From a virus, in IMG/VR virus record IMGVR_UViG_3300028581_003033, positions 1 to 43,808 of that record: 43,808 nt of DNA; one strand, 5' to 3'. The translations under genes were made by a program, and so were the position numbers. The first letter of the stretch is position 1. The number at the start of each line of letters is the position of its first letter. This document shows positions 7,752 to 14,113 of this stretch, in pieces. The notes under the pieces were generated by a model. The model searched no databases. It was not told the origin of the DNA and saw only the letters and a program-made list of their open reading frames with translations.

Positions 7752-7761
7752 GGTGAGAGAG

Positions 7762-7782
7762 GAGAAGTGAGAAGTGAGAAGT
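7762..7782 (+). repeat. GAGAAGT heptamer repeat, 3 copies
   Basis: Three exact GAGAAGT units begin 11 bases after the transposase stop and are followed by GAGA. The same heptamer forms a longer array at 13605-13646. This is a simple tandem repeat, not coding. Confidence 0.85.
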
Positions 7783-7815
7783 GAGATGACGATGCAACCA
7801 GCGGAGACCACGACC

Positions 7816-11759: not shown

Positions 11760-11787
11760 TCTCTCGGCTCAAAATTGAGCCGAGAGA
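11760..11787. terminator. 28-bp perfect palindrome after mor (terminator-like or operator)
   Basis: The 13-base arms TCTCTCGGCTCAA and TTGAGCCGAGAGA are separated by AA and start directly after the mor stop. As RNA it would be a strong hairpin ending the early transcript, although only ATT follows and there is no U-run. The symmetry also fits an operator for a dimeric protein. Either reading is an inference. Confidence 0.5.
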
Positions 11788-12055: not shown

Positions 12056-12292
12056 ATGGCCCTGTCTGCCGCCCTCGAACACCACCTCTCCGCGCTGCAC
12101 GAGCTGCGTCTGTGCCTGCAATGCCTGGCCGACCTCACCAGCCCCGACCTACTGCGGGCGGACCGCCCCGACCCCGCGCTCGACCTGGTGACCCGCGAAT
12201 CCCTGTGCGCGCTGTTCAGCGTCCTGGGGCGCGCGCACACCGCCGCCTACACCAACCTGGAGGCGGCGCTGACCGCCGGGAGTGACGTATGA
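12056..12292 (+). CDS. Small hypothetical protein preceding KilA-N gene
   Basis: 78 residues, ATG 12056 with GGAG at a good distance. All-helical: ALEHHLSALHELRLCLQCLA, then LVTRESLCALFSVLGRAHT and a final helix. Short helical proteins of this type are common directly after P4-like immunity leaders, and the gene overlaps the KilA-N start (ATGA). Function unknown; a role as antirepressor or regulator is only suggested by position. Confidence 0.65.
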   Translation: MALSAALEHHLSALHELRLCLQCLADLTSPDLLRADRPDPALDLVTRESLCALFSVLGRAHTAAYTNLEAALTAGSDV

Positions 12293-13101
12293 ATGATCTG
12301 ATGGCCCTGACCGTCGTCAACACCAGCATCCGTCGCGATGCCCTGGGGCGCTATTGCCTGAACGATTTGCACCAGGCAGCGGTCGCCGCCGGGTACAATC
12401 AGCGCGCCACCGAACCCGGGCAGTTTTTCCGGTCGAAGCGGGTTCAGATGGTCTTTGATCGGTTGTGGGAGCCGTTCGGAGGGCGTCCGGAAACTACGGC
12501 AAATTGCCGTAGTTTAGGCGTCGTCGGTGAGGCGCAAACTAACGCAAATTGCGTTAGTTTAGCCATCGTGGGCGATGCGGAAACTACCCCAAGACGGGGT
12601 AGTTTAGCCGTCGCGGGCGATGCGGAAACTAACTCAATTTGGGGTAGTTTAGGCCCCGTCCCGATCATCACAATCGAGGGCCGTGCCGGCGGCACCTGGG
12701 TGGTCGAGCGCCTGCTTTACCACTACGCAAGCTGGGTCGATCCGCTGTTCTTGGACAAGGTGGTCAACGCGCTCGATCACGCCATCGCCGGCCGCCTCGC
12801 GAGCGCGGCCGCCCAGGATCGGTTCAGCGACCAACACGCCAACCAGGCGCAACGCTACTGGTTCGCCCGCTACCCGCGCTGGGCGCGGATCAACGCCGGG
12901 GCGCGCGTCGGGGAGCCCTACGCCAGCATCGCGCGCGCCTTGGGCTGCAAGCCGGCCAGCGTGGCGCGCGCCGTGCGCAGCCAAATCCGCATCGGGCTAC
13001 TGCACCCGCGCGTGGTCGCGGTCGCCCAGTGCGGCCCGGCGCGGCGCGCGGCACAGCGGCTGATCCCCGGCTGGGGGCAGCAGTTGGCGCTTGATCTCTA
13101 G
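12289..13101 (+). CDS. KilA-N domain protein with an in-frame palindromic repeat insert
   Basis: 270 residues. KilA-N is a DNA-binding domain of phage and viral proteins, often in antirepressors. The N-terminal half of the domain is at about 8-60 (TSIRRDALGRYCLNDLHQAA, PGQFFRSK). The second half resumes at about 128 (PIITIEGRAGGTWVVERLLY, ASWVDPLFLDKVVNAL). Between them, residues 68-127 are four 15-residue repeats (pattern E/Q-T-x5-S-L-x3-G-x-A) encoded by palindromic DNA. The C-terminal part (about 165-270) carries an HTH-like PYASIARALGCKPASVARA and a basic tail. The frame is open through the repeats, so the insert is tolerated, probably as a loop. It sits after the structured leader and before lysis genes. 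Confidence 0.8.
   Translation: MNDLMALTVVNTSIRRDALGRYCLNDLHQAAVAAGYNQRATEPGQFFRSKRVQMVFDRLWEPFGGRPETTANCRSLGVVGEAQTNANCVSLAIVGDAETTPRRGSLAVAGDAETNSIWGSLGPVPIITIEGRAGGTWVVERLLYHYASWVDPLFLDKVVNALDHAIAGRLASAAAQDRFSDQHANQAQRYWFARYPRWARINAGARVGEPYASIARALGCKPASVARAVRSQIRIGLLHPRVVAVAQCGPARRAAQRLIPGWGQQLALDL
12491..12650 (+). repeat. Four tandem 45-bp units, each with a 25-bp inverted repeat
   Basis: Inverted repeats start at 12491, 12536, 12581 and 12626, an exact 45-bp period (15 codons). All begin AAACTA and end TAGTTT. The inner arms differ between units yet stay self-complementary: ACGGCAA/TTGCCGT in unit 1, AACGCAA/TTGCGTT in unit 2 and ACCCC/GGGGT in unit 3. Unit 4 is imperfect (AACTCAA with TTGGGGT), its right arm ending like that of unit 3. 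The 20-bp spacers between them are similar (GCGTCGTCGGTGAGGCG, GCCATCGTGGGCGATGCG, GCCGTCGCGGGCGATGCG). Confidence 0.9.
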
Positions 13102-13210: not shown

Positions 13211-13606
13211 ATGGCGCCCATGAGCTACGCCCTTTCCGCCCTCTCCAGAAAGCACCTCACCGGCGTCCACCCCGACCTGGTGCGCGTGGTCGAGCGCGCG
13301 ATCACGCTGACCGACACCGATTTTCGCGTGCTGGAAGGGCGGCGCACGCGGGCCCGGCAGCAGCAGTTGGTGACCGCTGGGGCGAGCAAGACCCTGAAGT
13401 CGCGCCATCTGACCGGTCATGCGGTCGACCTCGGCGCCTTGGTCGGCGGGAAAATCCGCTGGGACTGGCCGCTCTATCACCGGATCAGCAAGGCGATGAA
13501 AGCCGCGGCAATCGAGCTCGGCGTTGCCGTGGTGTGGGGCGGGGATTGGAAAAGCTTCAAAGATGGCCCGCACTACGAGCTGGAGCGCCGCCGTTACCCC
13601 GTATGA
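13211..13606 (+). CDS. Endolysin, M15-type L-alanyl-D-glutamate peptidase
   Basis: 131 residues. It should cleave peptide cross-links of peptidoglycan at lysis. The zinc site of the M15 (VanY/phage T5-like) family is complete: SRHLTGHAVDLG gives H66 and D73, and KDGPHYEL gives H121. The N-terminal substrate part includes VLEGRRTRARQQQLV. No signal peptide is present, so release needs a holin, for which a candidate lies downstream at 14117. Start is ATG 13211 or ATG 13220 in the same frame. The first lies inside a 19-bp palindrome and neither has a strong ribosome site. The stop falls on the first base pairs of the heptamer array. Confidence 0.9.
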   Translation: MAPMSYALSALSRKHLTGVHPDLVRVVERAITLTDTDFRVLEGRRTRARQQQLVTAGASKTLKSRHLTGHAVDLGALVGGKIRWDWPLYHRISKAMKAAAIELGVAVVWGGDWKSFKDGPHYELERRRYPV

Positions 13607-13646
13607 GAAGTGAGAAGTGAGAAGTGAGAAGCGAGAAGCGAGAAGC
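13605..13646 (+). repeat. GAGAAGT/GAGAAGC heptamer array, 6 copies
   Basis: Three GAGAAGT units (13605-13625) and three GAGAAGC units (13626-13646) start within the endolysin stop codon. A CT-rich stretch (13657-13700, CTCTCTCTCCTC and CTCCTCACTCC) that is roughly complementary follows. The remainder up to 13765 holds no gene that I can support. Confidence 0.85.
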
Positions 13647-13765
13647 GAGGGGGTGCCCTCTCTCTCTCCTCTCTCCTCACTCCTCTCCCCTAACACCTCT
13701 CCTATGTTTCCCTGGCCTCGCCGCGGCGGGGCTGTTGTTGTCACTCACCGTGAGATCGCTCGACT

Positions 13766-14113
13766 ATGTTTGCTATCCCTCAACTCGCGGCGGCCGTGTC
13801 CGCCAATCGTTCGGTCATCAACTCCGCTGTGCTGCTGCTCGGCGCGCTCGCGGCCGGTCTGCGCGAGGCCATTGCGCAGCAAGACATGGCCAAGGTCCGT
13901 GAACTCGCGGACACGCTGGATGCGCAGACCGGCACCCTGGCCGCCGCTGTGGCTGCCAATACGGTCGCCGACCCGGTGGATGATCCCGTTGTCGATCCCG
14001 TTGTCGATCCCGTTGTCGATCCCGTTGTCGATCCCGTTGTCGATCCCGTTGTCGATCCCGTTGTCGATCCCGTGATCGATCCGGCCATCGACCCAGAGCA
14101 TCCGGAGGCCTAA
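13766..14113 (+). CDS. Lysis-region protein with DPVV tandem repeat
   Basis: 115 residues. The first half is helical with a hydrophobic stretch (SVINSAVLLLGALAAGL, about 16-32) and then a charged helix (QQDMAKVRELADTLDAQ). The second half consists of Asp-Pro-Val-Val tetrapeptides, encoded by an array of identical 12-bp units. It lies between endolysin and holin-like genes, so it may belong to lysis, but no spanin lipobox is visible. The start ATG 13766 has only a weak ribosome site. Copy number of the repeat is likely variable. Confidence 0.6.
   Translation: MFAIPQLAAAVSANRSVINSAVLLLGALAAGLREAIAQQDMAKVRELADTLDAQTGTLAAAVAANTVADPVDDPVVDPVVDPVVDPVVDPVVDPVVDPVVDPVIDPAIDPEHPEA
13982..14077 (+). 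repeat. 12-bp tandem repeat, 8 units
   Basis: Seven identical GATCCCGTTGTC units (13982-14065) and one GATCCCGTGATC unit (14066-14077) lie in frame, encoding DPVV repeats. Identity at synonymous sites shows recent expansion by slippage. Confidence 0.95.

Follow-up and report, generated by a model that had tools for sequence, protein, structure and literature searches.

KilA-N genes commonly carry palindromic DNA at one fixed, in-frame place, the loop that, in the KilA-N domain, comes after a helix and before the GT[YW] hairpin. The palindrome is translated in frame with the rest of the gene, and the constraint on it lies on the DNA, not on the peptide. We found KilA-N genes with a palindrome at this loop in phages, plasmids and chromosomes, from Pseudomonadota, Bacteroidota and Bacillota as well as from a Myxococcus phage, and between distant genes the palindromes are unrelated in sequence. 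The four-copy array in the analysed DNA, an IMG/VR record of 43,808 bp that holds a Mu-like prophage (the whole stretch is called the window here), is an amplified form of this general feature.

A Four-Copy Array in a Mu-Like Prophage

The window prophage contains a transposase region, the activator Mor (PF08765), the KilA-N gene, an M15 endolysin and a terminase. The KilA-N protein scores 36.9 bits against PF04383, above the curated cut-off of 23.8, and its homologues score 47–81 bits. Within the gene, the first-pass annotation had described four in-frame palindromic 45-bp units at 12,491–12,650, and both their sequence and their coordinates proved correct (Table 1). Each unit contains a 25-bp palindrome, AAACTA-N13-TAGTTT. 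TRF recovers a period of 45 with 3.8 copies over 12,481–12,652 and 0% indels, and the exact-period, head-to-tail copies are those of a tandem duplication (VNTR). The inner arms are CGGCAA in unit 1, ACGCAA in unit 2, CCCCAA/CCCCGT in unit 3 and ACTCAA/CCCCAA in unit 4. As had been claimed, they vary and stay complementary: the arms of units 1, 2 and 3 differ from one another and yet pair, which implies two-sided changes among those units and rules out a plain VNTR without arm covariation. Summed over the four units, complementary bases stand at 44 of the 48 pairs, where synonymous recoding of the peptide gives 24.1 (SD 2.8, maximum 33 in 5,000), and the pairing in the window is thus not forced by the peptide. 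Unit 4 had rightly been called partly broken; its right arm pairs perfectly (6/6) with the left arm of unit 3, which looks like copying from neighbour to neighbour.

Table 1. Features of the window KilA-N gene and its palindrome array
Feature	Position	Strand	Details
KilA-N domain gene of the Mu-like prophage	12289..13101	+	270 aa; PF04383 E=3.5e-9; phrog_129 transcription regulation
Codons for KilA-N helix residues 50-63, ahead of the loop	12436..12477	+	AlphaFold, high confidence
Palindrome unit 1, AAACTACGGCAA-A-TTGCCGTAGTTT	12491..12515	.	arms pair 12/12
Palindrome unit 2, AAACTAACGCAA-A-TTGCGTTAGTTT	12536..12560	.	arms pair 12/12
Palindrome unit 3, AAACTACCCCAA-G-ACGGGGTAGTTT	12581..12605	.	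10/12; two innermost pairs broken
Palindrome unit 4, AAACTAACTCAA-T-TTGGGGTAGTTT	12626..12650	.	10/12; one A-G and one G-T mismatch
20-nt linkers between units	12516-12535, 12561-12580, 12606-12625	.	partly self-complementary
Codons for KilA-N beta-hairpin residues 126-138, after the loop	12664..12702	+	AlphaFold; homologue alignment

The array motif was found nowhere else in the 43,808 bp. A CRISPR-like array was considered for the repeats and rejected, as were terminators for the palindromes, which lie in frame and have no T-run. Among other features of the window, a perfect 13/13 palindrome, TCTCTCGGCTCAA-AA-TTGAGCCGAGAGA, stands right behind the Mor gene (11,760–11,787); it has a CAA..TTG centre, resembling the KilA-N units in this, and no T-run, and may be a terminator or another site. 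A 12-bp repeat, GATCCCGTTGTC, is present in 8.4 copies with 97% matches at 13,982–14,082, where it encodes DPVVDPVVD in a small ORF (13,766–14,113), and two gene ends (7,753–7,786 and 13,604–13,691) carry 7-bp repeat runs (GTGAGAA / TGAGAAG / CTCTCCT) that are possibly simple-sequence tracts. Positions 1–2,400 hold a flanking hybrid histidine kinase gene whose best DNA match, to Candidatus Thiodictyon syntrophicum plasmid pTs417 (70%), suggests a Chromatiaceae host for the prophage. A degraded copy of the prophage was found in an IMG/VR isolate record (L250), with DNA blocks 92–96% identical, a terminase protein 99% identical and host genes at the junction; this related prophage is without the KilA-N region.

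The AlphaFold model of the window protein shows residues 70–121 as disordered (pLDDT <50), between the helix 50–63 and the strands 126–129 and 135–138, with the remainder of the KilA-N domain intact. An E. coli homologue has a confidently modelled KilA-N domain with a helix at 48–60, a loop at 61–67 and strands at 68–71 and 78–81, and its palindrome encodes the end of that helix and the loop. The window array had been read as a 60-residue insert splitting the domain. The in-frame repeat stands, but the array, of about 55 residues, lengthens a loop already present in homologues and leaves the fold unbroken. Foldseek matches of the model (Mbp1, 1bm8; PCG2-DNA, 4ux5; DdrC) are all weak (E>0.1) and hence at most consistent with a winged DNA-binding fold; a PDB sequence search gave no solved close relative.

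Unrelated Palindromes at the Same Loop

Homologues came from viral contigs, searched with alignments of the window protein to KilA-N proteins of E. coli plasmids and phages; searches with only the DNA pattern or only the window protein were unproductive. Further KilA-N genes, identified through their Pfam family, were drawn from 23 genomes in a set of 369 Gammaproteobacteria, from 27 in a set of 140 Bacteroidia and from named plasmids. This sampling involved no selection for palindromes and added a subfamily with GAATTC-centred elements. Outside that subfamily, 31 of 60 representative loops reached a palindrome score of at least 9, compared with 1 of 173 other segments of the same genes, and that lone control match was the loop of one gene (L568) misplaced by the motif finder. 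Comparable palindromes were found in 40 of 6,000 segments of other ORFs. About one-third of these representatives had no clear palindrome.

Some loop palindromes are perfect, with 20/20 pairs in L571 (GTGCGGGACCGCTCCGGGAATTCCCGGAGCGGTCCCGCAC), 17/17 in L599 and 12/12 in L594, and others are distinct again (CGATGGGGGAATTCCCCCATCG, TGATATGCAAATTTGCATATCA, and AAGTCTGGGAATCCCCAGACTT in Myxococcus phage Mx9). Three units, among them AAACTACGCCAAaTTGGCGTAGTTT and CATTACGCCAAaTTGGCGTAATG, lie at the loop of L434 and two at that of coliphage mEp460_4F5. As unrelated palindromes occupy one loop across subfamilies, shared sequence cannot be their source. Stricter patterns gave no second array like that of the window in viral contigs or the 369 Gammaproteobacteria, and a loose pattern, GGAAACTA-N8..24-TAGTTTAG, gave only chance matches in viral and genome contigs, mostly in AT-rich DNA. 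One candidate member (L160) was rejected as the coincidence of a conserved PfaD-like peptide. In a phage contig, a 386-aa ORF with no match to the KilA-N model holds a 13/13 palindrome with a GCGAATTCGC centre (L263:1556-1581, GTTTGCCTGCGAATTCGCAGGCAAAC).

Covariation of the Arms in the GAATTC-Centred Subfamily

The element of this subfamily is a 34-bp palindrome, TTTTAA-N6-CGAATTCG-N6-TTAAAA, whose ends and centre are conserved across phyla (alignment A3). A “RhuM-type” label for the subfamily was dropped, Pfam giving L599 no PF13310. In the alignment of 39 distinct elements, 93.4% of cells were paired compared with 76.8 ± 1.0% after shuffling (0 of 500 shuffles), the covariation score was 0.431 compared with 0.135 ± 0.012 (0 of 500), and 105 cells had changed on both sides compared with 34, all these shuffle tests being inflated by kinship among the genes. 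At the five stem pairs, 174 of 195 were complementary against 77 ± 8 with the right arms shuffled, a number to be read with the same inflation. Two controls are independent of kinship. When the partner was shifted by one column, the covariation score fell to 0.16–0.17, and synonymous recoding gave 9.06 complementary pairs of 16 where 14.3 were observed, with P < 0.05 in 39 of 39 genes and P < 0.01 in 34. The refutation proposed in the first-pass annotation, non-complementary arms in related genes, did not succeed: homologues retain complementary arms while their sequences differ. In a Mantel test, the more two proteins differ outside the loop, the more the stems of their genes differ (r = 0.33, P = 0.0005); this correlation fits shared descent and coevolution equally and was given no weight as evidence.

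Second Sites and Linkage to the Gene

An upstream palindrome, with arms of at least 8 and no more than 120 nt from the estimated start, is present at 7 of 56 loci, compared with 1 of 156 control windows; these upstream palindromes end 18–83 nt before the start codon, and the remaining 49 loci lack such a partner. Those of L641, L605 and L619 are 17/17 palindromes with a GAATTC centre and other stems. Two loci (L653 and L648) have a palindrome upstream and none in the loop, and in another (L665) it stands directly behind the KilA-N gene. The stems differ even between copies at a single locus, as in L605 (three copies), L641 (two), the window (four) and L434. Second sites with up to 4 mismatches were absent within a few kilobases of most genes.

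Across the 2.4 Mb of the L605 genome, matches to the pattern (up to 2 mismatches) occur only within the KilA-N gene and 275 nt upstream of it. The sole two palindromes with arms of at least 10 on a 43-kb Pontibacter plasmid lie in, and just behind, its KilA-N gene, and the whole replicons of Pontibacter, Bernardetia and phage mEp460_4F5 hold few or no other comparable palindromes; a Photorhabdus plasmid has no palindrome with arms of at least 10 in its KilA-N gene. In these full scans, which cover one genome and four replicons, the element appears bound to the gene and not to be a dispersed repeat family.

Other observations were made around these loci. Two palindromes about 0.7–0.9 kb from KilA-N genes (L611:3110-3134, AGTCGGTGACAAATTGTCACCGACT; L591:1221-1243, CAGAGCCTCAAATTGAGGCTCTG) share the CAAATTG centre of the window units and are possible remote sites. 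KilA-N genes adjoin recombinase family genes recurrently, on Xenorhabdus, Aureispira and Photorhabdus plasmids (L652, L655 and L658).

The Level of the Constraint

The palindrome centres fall in several codon phases which, together with the recoding results, places the constraint elsewhere than on the peptide. On the sense strand, G·T mismatches number 6 and A·C mismatches 11 at pairs 1–13. Another 12 G·T mismatches fall at pair 14, which is uninformative, since its left base is set by a Phe codon. A stem in the transcript should tolerate G·U, and G·T mismatches do not exceed A·C, so the mRNA is probably not the constrained level. Most palindromes are complementary through the centre, with a loop of 0 or 1 in 27 of 39. 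Together these results point either to a symmetry of the DNA duplex or to the copying of one arm from the other, and the two causes put forward in the first-pass annotation, selected pairing and the rewriting of an arm, are both still plausible.

Explanations for the Fixed Palindrome

KilA-N is annotated as a DNA-binding domain. Symmetric sites within the coding sequence of a regulated operon are well established (lac O2, gal OI and the purB roadblock), and a site in a coding region can serve as operator or elongation roadblock. The explanation that we favour, at roughly even odds and from sequence evidence, is that the palindrome is an autogenous double-stranded DNA site, an intragenic operator whose symmetry is maintained by selection and, probably, by hairpin template switching. 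The palindrome would be a putative two-fold-symmetric binding site for the KilA-N protein itself; by occupying it in the coding sequence and at the promoter, the protein would act as its own repressor, with the site serving as an operator or an elongation roadblock. The control site would be portable, moving with the gene among phages, plasmids and chromosomes. The ends and centre (AAACTA and CAA/TTG in the window, TTTTAA and CGAATTCG in the subfamily) would be the selected contacts, and the variable stems may be matched by hairpin-templated polymerase switching, in which one arm is rewritten from the other whether or not symmetry is needed. DNA binding by KilA-N, the two-fold symmetry, the linkage to the gene and the second site at the promoter in some loci all argue for the autogenous site. 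Against it count the 49 of 56 loci without an upstream partner, the third or so of representatives outside the GAATTC-centred subfamily with no clear palindrome, and the weakness of the Foldseek matches. Unlike but paired stems at one locus also tell against it, since they are not something that a sequence-specific protein would require and are better explained by a structural or copying mechanism; hairpin template switching would match the stems without stem contacts.

The main alternative, which we consider rather unlikely, is a DNA cruciform or single-strand hairpin recognised by its shape, for which only pairing, an A/T-rich centre and the ends would matter. In its favour, the stems vary freely while remaining paired, even among copies at a single locus, and the centres are A/T-rich (AATT, AAATT). 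A perfect centre, found in many of the palindromes, is however needless for a hairpin or cruciform, and arms of 8–10 bp extrude poorly.

Less probable again is a purely mutational origin, with an ancient, functionless palindrome in a tolerant loop held symmetric by quasipalindrome template switching. In that process one arm is rewritten from the other, giving multi-base compensatory changes, homogenising inverted-repeat arms and creating and repairing perfect stems, in coding DNA too (PMC8604942, PMC8794818). The right arm of window unit 4, a copy of the left-arm type of unit 3, and the disorder of the loop in the window protein agree with this. Template switching acts anywhere, however, and alone leaves the fixed location and the conserved ends unexplained. 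Also against a purely mutational origin, such palindromes are scarce in other ORFs, ends and centre are kept across phyla, second copies cluster just before the start codon, and two loci have the upstream site with no loop site.

We judge it improbable that the palindromes are mobile in-frame inserts, like those of Rickettsia, or that KilA-N genes carry them as targets of recombination or homing. Multi-copy arrays (four units in the window, three in L434 and two in L430) and the recombinases or integrases that adjoin KilA-N genes in several plasmids would fit, but the palindromes keep to KilA-N loci and to one loop, and none was seen elsewhere in scans of one genome and a few replicons. The weakest explanation is a transcript hairpin on whose fold the KilA-N protein or a nuclease acts, RNA structure having been one cause offered in the first-pass annotation: covariation in a stem is classically taken to indicate RNA pairing, but against it stand the lack of a G·T excess, the mostly complementary centre, and the copies that lie ahead of the start codon or behind the gene.

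Relation to Known Systems

As in the intragenic operators, the KilA-N palindrome would work as a symmetric site in coding sequence; unlike theirs, it lies in the DNA-binding-domain codons of the presumed regulator, and its position is conserved across phyla while its sequence is not. The Rickettsia palindromic elements, to which the window units had been likened, are also palindromic DNA read in frame in a tolerant protein region. The analogy fails in that theirs is one sequence family dispersed in unrelated genes, whereas the KilA-N palindromes are tied to a single gene family and a single position and are hypervariable in sequence. PARCEL elements likewise are tandem coding repeats with dyad symmetry and horizontal spread, but their unit is an amphipathic DUF285-type repeat of 25 residues, found in surface proteins; the window array has a disordered 15-codon unit inside a DNA-binding domain and no DUF285 match in Pfam. 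REP/BIME sequences, tagged by GTAG/CGTC, are short palindromes whose stems vary (PMC3733652); they are extragenic and dispersed, and in the window GTAG is missing from unit 2 and from the left arm of unit 4. Open-access full text on KilA-N with palindromes, inverted repeats or operators held no description of such sites.

The KilA-N palindrome is a cis element fixed in position and not in sequence within a coding region, and ordinary motif searches would miss it. It offers a handle on the binding targets and regulatory roles of KilA-N proteins, which are common in phages and mobile elements yet poorly understood, and its many independent natural replicates make a system for studying how template switching and selection keep changing palindromes matched at a cost in amino acids. 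More tentatively, and with a low chance of being right, KilA-N proteins may be self-addressed regulators, in which the DNA encoding the loop beside the DNA-binding hairpin is the candidate binding site of the protein and symmetric rewriting by template switching alters operator and loop residues in one step, leading to new regulatory specificities. If this is true, recognition site and recogniser would travel and diversify as one cassette.
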